Origin: Bryum argenteum
Lineage: Eukaryota; Streptophyta; Bryopsida; Bryales; Bryaceae
Reading direction: 5' to 3'
Length of the DNA: 64,000 nt
Assembly: GCA_037043015.1 (NCBI GenBank)
Contig: CM073329.1
Span: 9,874,648-9,938,647 of the forward strand
Shown: positions 8,451 to 56,626 of the stretch, one piece after another
Layout of the letters: each line of letters starts with the position of its first letter
Numbering within the stretch: the stretch's first letter is position 1
Notes under the pieces: model-generated
Told to the model about the DNA's origin: nothing
What the model saw: the letters and a program-made list of their open reading frames with translations, nothing else
The model's database searches: none
Made by a program: the position numbers and the translations under genes

Positions 8451-8812
8451 ACACAAAACCAAGAAAAATATCAACCCACTATTTTTTTTTCCCCGTATAC
8501 CAAAATGAATGCAAAGTTAGGGCACGTTCATGTATGGGGAACAATTCCAACACCTACCAAAACATTGTCATCTGGACACACATGCTACAACATTTGTCTC
8601 ATTCTATTTGTCATCTTCTTAAAAAACTGACATGGTGACATCCATTTCCGAGTCGAAGACCCCCTCTCCAATGCGGCATTGTGTCTCGTCTAACTTAAGC
8701 TTTCGCACAAACAACCAATGATGATGATGGGTGGGTTCGCAAATACCAAGTAAACATGCATGCATGACCTCCCTCCCTAGCTAACTAGCTAGCTTGCCTA
8801 TTTGGATACCAT

Positions 8813-9249
8813 CATGCAAGCCTTAATTTGGCTATGGTAAATTACATCACAACACCAACATTCTTCATCATGCTTTGGACAAGGTGCTAGCTTGTCTCTT
8901 TTGCATTGGGTGAATTGTTTGAAAATTAGGGTTGGTTTTTGAAATTTGGGCCAAACCCCCCCAACATGCAAGCCTTAATTTGGCTATGGTAAATTACATT
9001 CACAACACCAACATTCTTCTTCATGCTTTGGACAAGGTGCTTGCTTGTCTCTTTTGCATTGTGTGAATTGTTTATAAATTAGGGTTGGTTTTTGAAATTT
9101 GAGCCAAACCCCCCAACATGCAAGCCTTAATTTGGCTATGGTAAATTACATTACAACACCAACATTCTTCTTCATGCTTTGGACAAGGTGCTAGCTTGTC
9201 TCTTTTGCATTGAGTGAATTGTTTGTAAATTAGGGTTGGTTTTTGAAAC
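8813..9249. repeat. 152-bp tandem triplication
   Basis: Three head-to-tail copies starting CATGCAAGCCTTAATTTGG at 8813, 8965 and 9117, exactly 152 bp apart. They differ by only a few bases each, so the event is recent relative to the rest of the region. The third copy fades just after 9249. Each unit holds TTCATGCTTTGGACAAGGTG and GTGAATTGTTT. No open frame runs through it. Confidence 0.95.
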
Positions 9250-9295
9250 TTATTGTTTGGTGGGAAGTTGCTATGGATGGTAGCTGTAGCATTTT

Positions 9296-26800: not shown

Positions 26801-27162
26801 AGCGCGAGATACTTGGATTATGAAACAAGTCGCTGCCGCACTGAATTCGACACTGGAAAAGACCTTGATACTTTGAATATGCACGAGTCACTACCTCACT
26901 GACTTTGACATTGGAATAAGACCTTGATACTTGGAATTTGCACAATCTTACTGAATTTGATATTAGGAAGGATCACGGTACCTGGAATATGCACAATTCA
27001 CAATCGTGCAGAATTTGATATTGGAAAGGATGACACTGGTACATGGAATGTGTACAAGGTACAATCTTACTAATGTTAGAAAGGACCTTCATACCTAGAA
27101 GTCACTATTTTACTAGTTGGCATTAAAAGGAACGTGGACGCACTAGAATACACACAATACCA
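26800..27162. repeat. ~70-bp minisatellite, part 1
   Basis: Diverged tandem units of the form TTTGACATTGGAAAGGACC, TTGATACTTGGAATATGCAC, then a short ACAA/TCACTACC block. Clear units begin near 26845, 26909, 26948 and 27008. The array is interrupted at about 27163 and resumes at about 27590 and again at 28828. Confidence 0.8.
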
Positions 27163-27589: not shown

Positions 27590-27810
27590 AATTCCCAAAC
27601 CTTGCAATACACTACCCCCTTGAATATGACATTAGAAAGAACCTTGATACTGTACTTGGAGAATGCACAAGTTACTACCCTCTTGAATGTGATATTAAAA
27701 AGGACCTTGATACCTGAAATATGCACAACTCACTACCCTTCTGAATTTGACATTAGAAAGGACCTTGATATGTGAAATATGCACAATCTACAACCTTATT
27801 GAATTTGACA
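27590..27810. repeat. ~70-bp minisatellite, part 2
   Basis: Three to four units with the same text as part 1, for example GATATTAAAAAGGACCTTGA and GACATTAGAAAGGACCTTGA. These units preserve the uninterrupted target into which the adjacent 1-kb element inserted. Confidence 0.85.
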
Positions 27811-28827
27811 TTAAACCCCTAAACGCTCACCCTCTTTTTAGCCAAAAAACATATTTTCAAAAAAAGTGTCATAGATGAAATGAAGATAGGATATTAAGAT
27901 ATCAACCGTGAAAACTTGTAATAGGCTTGTTTTAGTTCATGTGGACCAAGATTTGAATTATAAGGCCACATAGATTGGGAGATCATAACGTATTACTACT
28001 GAAGACTAAGTGTTGGATTTCATCATTTTCACTTCAGAGTGGAAATTCTACCAACAAACCAATCGCAATAAAAAAAACACCGACTACAAAGTTGTTCACC
28101 TTCATCTCAATAATATTTTATGAAAGCTATGAGAGTCATCAAAACAATCATTGGCTCAAATAATAGCCTTGCAATGGTGAATAGTGCCAAATATTTATAG
28201 AGAAGAAATAGTCCAAACTAGACCCTTCGCACTCAAATTCATGCCTTATCTTCAGAATTTCTTCGATCTTGTCAAGGTTTCTATCACTAAAACAAACTCT
28301 AATTGGAAGTCATCCCGAGAAATAAAGTTGAAATTCAATGGTGGATGAAGGTGATATGACTCCTAAAATATCATCCACTTTTCCACTATTTTCATTGACT
28401 GAACGTCATTGCAAATCTTGTAGCAAAATTATTTGATTCAAAAAGCTTCCAACTAGAAAGTTGTTAGGAATCACCTTAGTATTATGATGATAAAAATAAA
28501 ATATATAAAAATAAAATAAATGAAAAGATAAAAACAAAATACCATGATAAACCATTTTTTATTGTTAATAATTGGCTTATAATAGTAAAACATGTCCCAT
28601 ACTTGGAAACCCAAAACAAGAGTTGTTTTCACCAAAATGCATGCCATTAATTCATAATTTATTTCATGAGTTTTCAATATGTATCACACAAACTAGACTT
28701 GATTTGGGACCCAACCCAAGTGATTTCATTCAAAATAGACCTTAAATGAAGAAGCTATGGCTCTTCAAAGTTGTTGCCTTCTATCCAGAATGTCGTTTTT
28801 CGACATTCAACATGTTTAAGGGATTAA
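27811..28827 (-). mobile_element. 1.0-kb non-autonomous TTAA element (piggyBac-like ends)
   Basis: The left boundary is GACATTAA followed by ACCCCTAAACG, and the right boundary is TTTAAGGGA followed by TTAAAAGGACCC. Removing the insert and one TTAA regenerates GACATTAAAAGGACC, which is the text of neighbouring minisatellite units. So the empty site is visible in the same window, with TTAA (or ATTAA) duplicated. The interior aligns in reverse with 39973-41030. It has no open frame of note and encodes no transposase. Internal frames such as 28471-28677 are shadows. Confidence 0.82.
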
Positions 28828-28990
28828 AAGGACCCAAATACTTGGAATGCGCACAAGTTACAACCTTACTTGATTTGACGTTGCAAAGGACCATGATATT
28901 TGAAAATTTGAAAAAGCCACAATCTCGTTGAACTTTGAATTAAAAACAACCCTACCACTTGGAATATGTGATATCACATTAAACTCTAGG
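28828..28990. repeat. ~70-bp minisatellite, part 3
   Basis: Resumes immediately after the insertion with AAAAGGACCCAAATACTTGG, AATGCGCACAAGTTACAACC and a further decayed unit. Confidence 0.75.
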
Positions 28991-39972: not shown

Positions 39973-41030
39973 TTAACCCTTAAACACGTCGAATGTTGAA
40001 AAACGACATAAATTGTGGATGAAAGGCAGAAACTTTGTAAAGCCATAATTTCTTCCTCCGTAGTCTGTTTTGGATGAAATCACTTGCGTTGGGTCCCAAA
40101 TCAAGTCTAGTTTGTGTGATGAAAATTACACACCCATACAATGAAGTATGAACAAGTAGCATGCATTCTAGTGAAGGCAGCTCTTGCTTTTGAGTTTTCA
40201 AACATGGGGCATGTTTACCTTTGCATGGGCAATTATGATGTTGTTTTTTAATTCAAAATGATTTATAATATATATATATATATAATTTTTCATTATTTAT
40301 TTATTTTTTTATTTTTTTATTTTTTAAAGATTTTATTACAGAATCATGATCTTAAGATGATGGCTAACAAATTTCTAGTTTGAAGATTTTTGATCCAAAT
40401 AACTTTGGTATTGGCTTTGCAATGATGTTTCTTCAATGAAAAAAGTATATAAATGGATGATTTTTGAAGAGCTATATCTCCTTCATCCACCATTGGATTT
40501 TCACTTTGTTATTTGGGGTGGGTTCCAATTTGACTCTAGTTCATGTCGTAGAAACCTTGAAAAATTTGAAAATGTATCGAAGATAAGGCATAGATTTGAG
40601 TGCAAAGGGTTAAGTTTTGAACTATTTTTCCTTAATTTGCACGTTTTGGCAGTTTTCATCATTGCAAGTCCATTATTTGCACCAAAGAGATTTTGTCATA
40701 GATTTTGTTTTTGTTCAAGGGTGTTATTGAGATGAAGGTGAATATCTTTGTAGTTGGTGGTTTTTTCATTGCAATAAGTCTATTGGTAGCATTTTTACTT
40801 CAAAGTGAAAATGCTGAGATTTTGTGATGTTTTTTTGAGTACTAATATGTTACAATCTCGCAATTTATGAGGCCTCATGAGTCAATTTTTAAGTCACTTG
40901 ATGTAGAATATGTTTAATACAAGATTGTATGGTTCACATTTGAATAACTTACCTTTTGTTTCCATTTATGTTACGTTTTTTGAGGATGTGTTTGTTTTTG
41001 TATAAATGAGTCAATCCAATAAGGGGTTAA
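39973..41030 (+). mobile_element. 1.06-kb non-autonomous TTAA element
   Basis: Starts TTAACCCTTAAACACGTCG and ends AAGGGGTTAA. Its 5' end matches the reverse complement of the right end of the 27811-28827 element (TTAATCCCTTAAACATG, GAATGTCGAAAAACGACAT). The two modules are in the same order as at 13900-14700. A TA microsatellite and T-rich tract at about 40267-40325 sit between modules. The 99-codon frame at 40436 spans a noncoding module shared by other copies and is not a gene. Confidence 0.75.
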
Positions 41031-51649: not shown

Positions 51650-53725
51650 AACCCTTAAACGCCCATGGGGTCTGAAACGGGCAGCCCAAAATTGGATCAT
51701 AGCATCTTTTGGACTTGGGCATCATGAATAGTGCACTTTTTGAACTTGGGCATCATGAATGGACCAATCAATGATGAGCTTGCAACCTCCTACAAGGTTA
51801 TGTACAACTCCAACCTACCACAATTCTTTCAAAGCACAAAATCATTCATACAAATTGTGATTTGAATTGTGAAATTTCACTTTTTGAATGCATCAAAAGA
51901 AGGTGACCGATTTGACATCAATATATAAGTGAAATGTTGAATACAGTGAGAGCTACAGGGAAGATTCTGTTGGAATCATGCCCCTCGGGCTTGCTTGGGC
52001 GTTTGAGAGTTAAGGTACGTTCCCACTTGGCCTTAGAGGTGGTGTTAGAAGGTGGTCTTATCTCTTTAAAAGAGTGTATCTTCCCACCTGCATTCATTAA
52101 TAATTATCAATCCTACATAGATGCCCACATAGCAAACTCTAAAACAGATTTTAAAAAACTAGATAATTTTTGGAGGACAAAAGATAATTGAGCATTAGTA
52201 GGCAATTGTCAAGGAAGCATCACAATTAGATATATTCCCAAGTTTTGAACACTTAAGAGTGGCCTTGGAGGATCCATTATGTAAATGAGGTTGCTACACA
52301 GGACACTTTTCCAAGCCTCCTTGATGACACCTCCTTAAAGAAAAGGGTTTCTCCGAAAATTATGGAGGTGTTAAATTTTAATGTACACTCTTAGCAAAGG
52401 CTAGGTGGGAAGGGGCCTTTAGGCCTACTTTATACAACTACATGGGTTGGCCGGAACTTTGGCCTGATTCAGGAGTTTGCCAATCCCCATTCGGACAAGA
52501 GTTTCAGGATCCAGCCCTATGGCATATAAAGCCCTGGGCCCCATTACTGGATTTTTTTTTTCTTTAAAAATTAATATCAATTTATGTATTTACCAATTGA
52601 GGGATACATATGAACTATGGTAAAATGTCGAGTTTAGTATTTCTTCATCACGGTATTCAGCCTTTTTGCTTAGAACTTATGTCAATAAATTATATCTTTA
52701 GCTTCATTTATTAACGTAGTTATTGAATATGAAAAAATTTACAATGACATAGGCTTTAGGAGTAATTTCATATGAGTAAACGCTTTTGTAAATATTTTCA
52801 AAGAAGTGAACGCTTGCAAAATATTGAATTTTCTTGTTTATAACTTATGAATATTTATTCAAGTTATAGACTTTTGGTCACAACATGCATTTGCATACAT
52901 AACTTGTGAATTGTACTTGAAGATTGCTTAATTGGCTTCAGGAAAAAGAAGCAGAAACACATATCAAAGATGCGTCTAATAGGCACTTTGGGAACTTGGA
53001 GAATGCTCGACACAAGGCCATGGAGCTTAATATTGCAAAAGAATTCATAAAATAAATGCAATTAATGTTGTTGCATCCACAAGCGGCTCTTTAATTTGTA
53101 CAATACGATGAAGAGGATCCATAAAGTTTTGGAGACATTGCTCAAGAAAAACTAGTTACTTCTAAAAGGGAAAAAGAATAAATTACTAAAAAATGTTACA
53201 GCAAGCTACCACACAACACGAGATGATGGTAGAAAAATTTCTGGAAGTTGCACCTAGCTACAGAAAGCGGTATTACATTTGATGAGGCTATGGGTGTATG
53301 AACCGAATTGGAATAAATATTATTATTTTTAAATAACATGTACATTATTTTAGAAATAATGCAAATAAAAATTTGATATTCTAGATTCTTACCTATTCAA
53401 ATACATATTTTGATAACATCAAATTACTGCAAATCTCTGACAATACAAAAAATTCTTACAAATACTATACATATACTATGTTATATTTCTGTTGTTTGAA
53501 AGTTTCTTATTTTATAATTTCTATTTTGGAATGTGTTTTTCAATTCAAGTTTTAGTATTTATGTATCTACTATGACCTTAATCAATGTACAACCTGCCCG
53601 ACAACAAGAGTATTACAAGTTTGTACAGTTGAGATCTATATATAGCTTATCTTCATTTCATCTATGACACTTTCTTTGAGAATGTGTTTTTTGGCTGAAA
53701 ATAGGTTGTGACGTTAAGGGGTTAA
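51650..53725. mobile_element. Possible 2.1-kb TTAA-ended element
   Basis: Left edge TTAACCCTTAAACGCCC (51650). The reverse complement of the right edge is TTAACCCCTTAACGTC (53725). The last ~130 bp (ATCTTCATTTCATCTATGAC, GAATGTGTTTTTTGGCTGAA) match the 3' end of the 1-kb elements. The interior does not otherwise match them and carries no recognised gene, so it may be two separate fragments. Confidence 0.35.
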
Positions 53726-56626
53726 AGTTACACACAATCAAATCATAATTTTGAGCGTACACTACACAATTCAAAGCCATCATCAAACTATTTTAACATA
53801 TTATAAAAAGATATGTTTTAGTAAAAAATATATAAAGGGTAATAATACATCAAGAAATGAAGAAAAGACAACCAATCACTTATCAAATAATGAAAATGAC
53901 ATTATGAAGAGTCCAAGAGGACTATACACAAAGGATTGATCAATCACACTAGTTGTTATAAGAAATCCAAAATCCACAAACTCAAAGTGTCACACTCAAA
54001 CCTACTGTGACACTCAAACTCAATGTAACAAACAATGTCACACAATTAAGCTGATTGTCACACACTCAAACTCAAAGTGATTAAAACTTCTCAATTGGCT
54101 TCTCCGTGTCCTTGTCCAAATTTTCCATGAACCCATTAGCCACATCCATATTATGAGTGATGTTTTTACTATTGTCTACCAGTTGTGAAGTAAATTTTAG
54201 AGTTTTTTCCATGTACTTAATTCTTGGTGTTACATTTTATACTTTCTTTGATAACGAAGACACTTCCTCTTCATCTTTTTTGTTCACTTGTATTGTGCAC
54301 TCCCCATGTCGCTAGTAAAAGTGAAGATTTGTTTCACCACTGCTCCACTAGAATGATACTAAGTATCTATGGAGTCGTAGAATTTGCACGTGTAACATGC
54401 TTCTCCATAAATGTTATTTGCTCGTTTATCTTCCTTGTATGCCTTGAGTACGTCACCAAATTTACTTTTGTAACCCTTAGGTGACTTCTTGAAATTTGGA
54501 GGGGGGCATAAAAGCCTTGAATGAAGCTTGAGTCACATGTTCACACCTACACCACAACAAGAAGTTCATAAAATTAGGAACAAGTACAATTAATACTCAT
54601 TAAGAAATTCATTAAAAATTGATTAAAAAATTCCTCCTCTACATTTATCAACATTTTGTGATATTGTAAACATATATTAAACCACACTTTTTATGAGTGT
54701 AGAGGACATTTAAGAGTGCACCAAAAATTTAGTTCAAAGAACATAACACATAATAATGTTTTTTGAGATGCTCTAAAAAAGCTCATTATACCTTAAAAAA
54801 ACTTCACGACGCTTTAAAACAAAAAAATTAGAATCACTTATTGAGCTTTTTAAGGGAAATTCAAGTAAAAAATGTAGATATAATTTCAAGAAAAACATGA
54901 TGATGGAGTTCAACATTAGTAGCAACAGTCTATCACATAAGAACAAGAAGAAATTGAAGGAAGAAGGGCTCTCAAAAGCATGGAATAAACCAAGTTGTCG
55001 GTACAAGCGTTGTGTCGTTAGCTGCAACTCCTCTTGTCCAAAAACTTAGAGCCCAAAACCCTTGCAATACCAAAATATTATGTTAGAATGACCTTAAACC
55101 GCGCGGCCCCCAGAAGTGCAGGGTAGACCGCCCCTATAGCCGCCCATGGCGTGGACCTTATTGCACGCACAACACTTGTGAAATCTGAGGGTACATAGTG
55201 ACTCGATATGGAATTGTGTAGGGAGGTCGTTATGTCAGGACATCATGTAGCGGCGCGTTTATGAGGTTTTTTAGTACTAAAAATAGGAGGGCCGTAAGCA
55301 ATAAAATGGTACTAAGTGCGCAATTTTAAGAATCTTGATTTATTGGTATATATATATATTTGAAATGACTGCGTCTATGATTGGGTGTGCTCTATTTCAT
55401 GTCGACTACAATCCCATTATTACATTGTCGGCATGACGGCTACAACTTCAATAGTGTTACGGTTCATGTTCATGAGTAACTTAGAGTTCTAAGCTTAACA
55501 ACTGCATTCACTTAGCAGTGTACAATGGAATCTTTCGAAATTGTGCTTGAGCACTGCCGATTCGTTACACAAGCATGCTGAACGACATGGAGCAATAGTA
55601 GGAATTATTGGAGTTCATGTGACGTATTAGTGAGTGGCAGATCGTCGATACCTCATACGTGCATGGTGAGGTACAATTACACAATTCAAAACTTTAAAAC
55701 TTATAATCAGAGAATCGGGGTTCATGCTTAAATCAGCTAGCACCTGCGTACAACGTAAATATGATAAAATGTAAACTTGAAAACGTAATGCGTATAGCAA
55801 CTGCTGATAGCAAGTGCCGAAAGCAACTGCTGCGAAAGAATTCATGACACGATCTAAATTTCATGAACAGTCAACATCGGATTGCTGAACTGATTAACTT
55901 CGATTCAGTGTTTCAGGAGAAGCGGCAGTTTTTGACCGACGTTCGCGATCAGGTAGACTTACTCAGTCTCGATCTTGTAGATCTAATTGTCATGAACTGC
56001 GAGGTAAATTGGAGCTGATGAACTGACGAGTGTTTCAGATTCCTCGCGACACTTGGCATATGGAACTCATAAGAAGCGACACTTGGCATAGAGAACTCAT
56101 AAGAAGTGGCACTTGTGGACCCTCGCGGTAGTAGCCATAATCTGCAAGCTCATTCCACCGTCATCTGCACATGAACAACATTCCTGCGATTCACCTTGGG
56201 GACGTCGGGAACGCAGACTGGAGCGATGACGTTGATCAGAATGCCAACGACGACTATAACAGTAGAGGAAGTGACGACGTTGGGGAGATCTGTCCAGTCG
56301 ATTACACTCCGCCGGAGTTGTTTCAGAGGCATCGGATGAAGCACGCTGGGACATTTTGTACTGGCACACAGTCATGTCGTCCTGCTCTCTCCTTCGAGGT
56401 TGTCAGCGGTAGAGAAGTCCAATATCATGAAAGTGATTTGCACTCCCGCGCCTTTCGTCGTCTGCATGGCAGGTCCGGGGCTGAAGTCCTGACATGCACA
56501 AATCCTACGCGACTGCAGTTCTTGCGACCCACGCCTGCAAAGAATTCTACACGTGACAGTGAAAACCGCCGGGGTGGGAGGAGACATGCAACGCAGAAGA
56601 AGAGAATTCGCAAAAACGGCAACTAG
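53726..56626. other. AT-rich intergenic DNA, then a GC-richer block
   Basis: Short TGTCACAC/CTCAAACTCAAAGTG repeats lie at 53985-54080. A TA run is near 55350. From about 55900 composition rises. Overlapping frames on both strands at 56097-56638 are probably chance; the plus-strand 151-codon frame stops just before the transposase remnant. Confidence 0.4.

Follow-up and report, generated by a model that had tools for sequence, protein, structure and literature searches.

The window, by which we mean the whole stretch of 64,000 nucleotides analysed here, corresponds to C9:9874648-9938647 of the host genome. The host is a plant and probably a moss: rbcL, whose best PDB match is a Rubisco large subunit, was located on a contig of 114,600 bases (C12) next to an accD-like frame, and eleven contigs of 7-44 Mb (C1-C11) account for about 258.4 of the 258.8 Mb, which suggests 11 large chromosomes, a number that is found in mosses but not in them alone. 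Its genes include GH3 and dihydroorotate dehydrogenase, and a tandem array of a 153-bp unit (2.9 copies, 95% matches) lies at 8809-9251. The subject of this analysis is a 1-kb element that interrupts a minisatellite at 27811-28827. The window also contains several fragments of the same family, which we call the 1-kb family. The features that the following text refers to are these:

27605..27810, no strand: left part of the interrupted 58-bp minisatellite, preceded by further units at 26808-27057
27811..28827, plus strand: very probable non-autonomous piggyBac-superfamily element, including both TTAA copies; apparently an old copy, without an open reading frame of at least 110 amino acids
27811..27814, no strand: left TTAA, target-site duplication
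27816..27825, plus strand: left terminal repeat CCCCTAAACG, with an extra A at 27815 between the repeat and TTAA
28790..28806, no strand: subterminal palindrome ATGTCGTTTTTCGACAT; many young copies have the palindrome at the same end
28814..28822, minus strand: right terminal repeat, reading GTTTAAGGG in plus-strand letters
28824..28827, no strand: right TTAA, target-site duplication
28828..28960, no strand: 58-bp minisatellite continued, right of the insertion
39973..41030, minus strand: second copy of the same 1-kb family, with TTAA at both ends
53603..53726, minus strand: 5′ fragment of the same 1-kb family, beginning TTAACCCCTTAACG

The first-pass annotation had placed the insertion exactly at a TTAA within a tandem unit and had proposed that this TTAA was duplicated. 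The coordinates turned out to be exact: TTAA stands at both ends, and removing the element in silico together with one TTAA yields GAATTTGACATTAAAAGGACC and restores a 58-bp register. In the joined stretch, the unit motif starts at 142, 200 and 258, i.e., with a spacing of 58 bp on either side of the restored unit. The unit length of about 70 bp given earlier has to be corrected, since the measured period is 58-59 bp. What had been said of the intact neighbouring units stands in part: the wording GATATTAAAAAGGACC is present in the unit at 27685, but the other units mostly lack ATTAA. Specifically, ATTAA is found near the insertion place in two of the nine other listed units (27685 and 28930), the rest reading ATTAG, ATTGG or other forms, so that TTAA is not fixed in the array. 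The local array thus supplies a convincing empty site, albeit a paralogous rather than an allelic one.

As compared to the family, the window copy has decayed ends. An extra A follows the left TTAA and an A replaces the G before the right TTAA; at both ends, one additional base separates TTAA from CCC. TTAA occurs 664 times in the 64-kb window, counting both strands and including the element's own ends and those of other family copies. In two of these 664 cases, the stretch that follows TTAA resembles the family terminus no less than the left end of the element, and in 14 cases no less than its right end. The right end alone thus makes a weak case, and the case for real boundaries comes from dispersed copies with the same boundaries.

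Such copies were sought by searching the host genome (258.8 Mb in 25 contigs) with the window element as query, which gave 51 matches from the best 40 of 6,891 candidates scored; because scoring was limited to these, the copies studied are biased to young ones. Full-length matches besides the element itself are 74-77% identical to it. From the 39 regions taken, 40 matches covering at least 900 query bases were counted, and shorter ones, including L047, were dropped. Aligning genome copies to define their boundaries had been suggested in the first-pass annotation, and 37 of these 40 near-full-length copies indeed end at TTAA on both sides. The three exceptions are L028, L046, where the right side reads TTGA in place of TTAA, and L041_-1369, whose right end is broken by another copy. 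At L028 (C2:26081582-26083352), the 1-kb copy has TTAT, not TTAA, on both sides, as would result if it had inserted at a non-standard target. The pattern used for trimming the copies before alignment itself included TTAA, with three substitutions allowed. A recount with TTAA excluded from the pattern gave 38/40 on the left and 36/40 on the right; the misfits of L025 and L039 in this recount are slips of the pattern, as their printed ends read TTAA, and both are counted among the 37.

The family ends read TTAA-CCC[C/T]TAAACG, such that the terminal inverted repeats start with CCC right after TTAA. The termini are mostly CCCCTAAACG and CGTTTAGGGG, with CCCTTAAACG in some copies. For alignment, 39 trimmed copies with a length of 975-983 bp were used, L041_-1369 being left out on account of its broken right end. 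When two mismatches are allowed, the left end of the family has 837 matches in the genome as compared to 0 in the control, where what is counted are ends and not intact elements.

Further empty sites come from within the family itself. At L034, L036 and L041, a copy is nested within a copy of the same family, and taking out the inner copy with one TTAA leaves an outer copy that can be aligned in full to the young copy L011 (94.7%, 96.3% and 93.9% identity, respectively). The junctions at L034 and L036 show a single TTAA in both sequences, and the nested site at L041 is a TTAA in the right terminal repeat of the outer copy. At L019, a single TTAA lies between two copies arranged head-to-head.

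With respect to age, 36 of the 39 other aligned copies have an identity of 78-80% to the window copy and the remaining three one of 76-77%; among these copies, which were the best-scored ones, the window copy thus has no close relative. Among these 39 other copies, 31 have a nearest relative that is at least 98% identical, and L011 and L022 are identical in all 979 aligned bases despite different flanks, which argues for recent movement of the family. One of these close pairs, L035 and L040, shares its flanks and is therefore attributed to the duplication of a larger segment rather than to transposition. An ORF scan of the window copy found no frame of at least 110 codons, and this, together with the distance of about 21% from its relatives, points to an old, inert and non-autonomous copy. 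Thus, the 1-kb family has moved recently, but the window copy itself is old. Being non-coding and damaged at its ends, it is very likely inert now.

The first-pass annotation had further advised a search for a DDE_Tnp_1_7 transposase with matching terminal repeats, and one was found. We searched the host genome with the piggyBac domain PF13843 (DDE_Tnp_1_7). The profile gave 775 candidates, of which 116 were scored, all 116 lying above the curated cut-off, and many of the loci have long open frames. No match to PF13843 was obtained in 14 control genomes, which are seemingly prokaryotes and make for a weak control. The terminal pattern TTAACCCYTAAACGYCC has 5,636 exact matches in the genome as compared to 0 for the reversed pattern. 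The first 100 matches listed all lie on C1; of the pairs of neighbours within 6 kb among them, 26 face inward, none face outward and two point in the same direction. These inward pairs span 270-1151 bp and, in one case, 5,199 bp; 16 of them fall at 978-985 bp and five at 370 bp.

The 5,199-bp pair delimits L068 (C1:23339974-23345172), which carries TTAACCCTTAAACGCCC at both termini and a stop-to-stop frame of 897 aa with a PF13843 match of 1.4e-82. A search with its 886-aa product gave T. ni piggyBac at 2e-29 (6x67) and piggyBat at 7.4e-24 (9c0f), and two further copies are 97-98% alike to L068 over 4.5 kb and 96-97% over the right end. When the product is aligned to 6x67, CVDEMM, TCDNFFTS and VDVHDQ pair with the chain's own motifs; we take these three motifs to hold the catalytic Asp residues. 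When the third motif was sought with a strict pattern, 4 of 12 transposase loci fitted; this pattern is too narrow, given that L051 reads VDVADQ. When the 12 transposase loci were inspected with 1.5 kb of flank, a 3′ terminus of the family type was present in L048, L049, L052 and L057, a different one in L055 (CCCCTCAAGGCCCATG) and a doubtful one in L054, and six had none. The left end was found for L048 and L049, and it was not found for L052 and L057 in the 2 kb added. Besides L068, a complete element with these ends was found for L048 only. Four further 3′ flanks gave two termini reading CGTTTAAGGGTTA[A/G] and two variants. In L049, L050, L055, L056 and L058, the DDE domain begins 417-501 residues into the stop-to-stop frame, some of these frames extending beyond the fetched locus, and no Pfam match was found ahead of the DDE domain in these five. 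A scan of viral contigs with the 886-aa product, which reaches close relatives only, found no relatives.

L068 resembles T. ni piggyBac in having a DDE_Tnp_1_7 domain, Asp-bearing motifs and a Cys-rich C-terminal segment. However, its frame is longer, such that the match to 6x67 runs from residue 406 of 886 as compared to residue 121 of 594 in the chain, and the front part is without a Pfam match. Likewise, residues 414-884 of L068 match piggyBat from Myotis lucifugus (9c0f), from which it differs in the host and in the length of the front part. The 1-kb family shares with T. ni piggyBac (6x67, 6x68; PF13843) the TTAA at both ends and terminal repeats beginning with CCC, whereas the window element, unlike T. 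ni piggyBac, codes for nothing of at least 110 aa.

What connects the 1-kb family to L068 are the outermost bases. The right end of the 1-kb copy L014 is identical to L068 over the 17 terminal bases. Among about 100 left ends listed for the 1-kb family, three, not necessarily of full-length copies, start with TTAACCCTTAAACGCCCGAGC, which equals the 21 bases of the L068 left end including TTAA. The terminal 17 bases of L011 differ from those of L068 at 2 positions. Further inward, the first 600 and last 800 bases of L068 share no 10-mer with the 200 terminal bases of L011, which was the single young copy used for this comparison, and the palindrome ATGTCGTTTTTCGACAT, with 3 substitutions allowed, is absent from five transposase-bearing stretches and from four further 3′ flanks. 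Since only the terminal 13-21 bases are common to the 1-kb family and a transposase-bearing element, the exact partner of the family is an inferred one. The piggyBac reading of the first-pass annotation is nonetheless borne out by the TTAA ends of 37 of the 40 copies, by termini starting with CCC and by a DDE_Tnp_1_7 transposase inside an element with matching ends. Among the copies and PF13843 loci analysed, neither of the outcomes named beforehand as speaking against this reading came up, i.e., family boundaries away from TTAA or an autonomous partner of another superfamily with the same ends. Membership of the 1-kb family in piggyBac is well supported on these grounds, and we consider the window element, with high confidence, to be a defective non-autonomous DNA transposon of the piggyBac superfamily. 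In its proposed history, a DDE_Tnp_1_7 transposase encoded elsewhere in the genome would have bound the short terminal repeats and excised the element from its donor site, upon which the element would have inserted at the TTAA of a 58-bp minisatellite unit with duplication of that TTAA. We infer cut-and-paste movement, as in known piggyBac, and the transposase lineage of the L068 type, rather than a relative of it, is the one that we suppose to have moved the family.

Several other readings of these data have to be weighed. That the flanking TTAA is a mere coincidence in A+T-rich DNA, where an unrelated insertion took place or the array diverged, might be suggested by the frequency of TTAA in the window (664, both strands) and by the 14 that match the right end equally well. 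But the scattered copies that share these boundaries, the nested empty sites and the exact restoration of the 58-bp register make its probability negligible. An assignment to PIF/Harbinger or Tc1/mariner, which duplicate TTA/TAA or TA, was likewise rejected: young copies read TTAA-CCCC...GGGG-TTAA with differing flanks, and the nested sites keep one TTAA. Kolobok and Sola3 also use TTAA targets, and TTAA alone does not fix the superfamily. A non-autonomous element of one of these, with ends that came to resemble piggyBac by convergence, would also fit the fact that the transposase-bearing element shares terminal bases only with the 1-kb family. Yet an element with an open piggyBac frame agrees at both ends with members of the 1-kb family in the 13 bases that follow TTAA, and with some left ends of that family in 21 bases when TTAA is counted. 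Moreover, piggyBac transposases are abundant in the host genome, and such convergence is therefore highly improbable.

Within the piggyBac explanation, the question of which lineage moved the 1-kb family is much less settled. A lineage other than that of L068, be it another one in this genome or an extinct one, would account for the subterminal sequence that differs from L068, and for the fact that most young 1-kb copies have CCCCTAAACG as compared to CCCTTAAACG in L068; moreover, another lineage with other ends does exist here, as seen at L055. On the other hand, CCCTTAAACG is borne by the 1-kb family at the right end of L014 and at the left end of L045, and the agreement of L014 with L068 extends to all 17 terminal bases. 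We regard movement by such another lineage as a serious possibility, somewhat short of an even chance. It would be a sub-case of the assignment of the window element to piggyBac, which we continue to prefer.

piggyBac is best known from animals, and the kind of element described here is in itself already known; the moderately interesting part is the host lineage together with the recent movement of the family. As for what has been published on plants, the parts of the literature available to us mention piggyBac-like elements in fungi, plants and animals (PMC8086355, PMC10813416), and PiggyBac as one of seven groups of angiosperm MITEs (PMC10004981). A repeat annotation of a fern lists, in the portion available, 1,230 piggyBac fragments (PMC6890710), and for a grass one piggyBac match of 75 bp is given in the corresponding portion (PMC8319324). 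In the available text of a moss genome paper (PMC10619864), only the word "piggybacking" occurs. A literature search on bryophytes and land plants, comprising titles, abstract openings and partial texts, yielded no account of moss piggyBac elements, which is no proof of their absence. Within this partial literature, the statement of the first-pass annotation that such elements are little described in land plants agrees with what is in print. The window element resembles the plant PiggyBac MITEs (PMC10004981, as far as its text was available) in being a short non-coding plant element with terminal repeats. In contrast to that account, where in the available text the group is merely named, a transposase-bearing element with matching ends is found here in the same genome.

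Taken at their widest, the open, long-fronted transposase frames and the near-identical short passengers might mean that a land plant, probably a moss, has a large, recently mobile native piggyBac system that is perhaps still active, to which we give nearly, though not quite, an even chance. If a native system is indeed still active, plant piggyBac would be open to direct test. A plant genome with open piggyBac frames and near-identical passengers would also make it easier to place the superfamily among land plants. Animal piggyBac is already in use for marker excision in rice, and as of 2017 it had yet to be tried in the moss P. patens (PMC5505980), so a native plant piggyBac might be a useful tool.

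Two further classes of structure deserve mention. The pattern of the 1-kb right end has 142 matches in the genome, and among about 100 listed there are three outward-facing pairs, spanning 4.1-8.5 kb. Two of these, L075 (C9:6374332-6378676) and L076 (C7:11079658-11084443), were considered as an autonomous partner and rejected, as they have no frame of more than 102 codons and no transposase. Each is bounded on either side by the 1-kb right end, and both are inverted duplications with a truncated 1-kb copy and flanks in each arm; in L075, the arms are about 1,560 bp long and 99.6% alike. Both have the look of fold-back elements carrying a captured piggyBac passenger. Lastly, the five inward pairs of 370 bp among the 100 matches listed form a class on C1 (e.g., 20376515-20376884 and 24109021-24109390) with TTAACCCTTAAACGCCC at both ends, perhaps representing shorter passengers of the same transposase.
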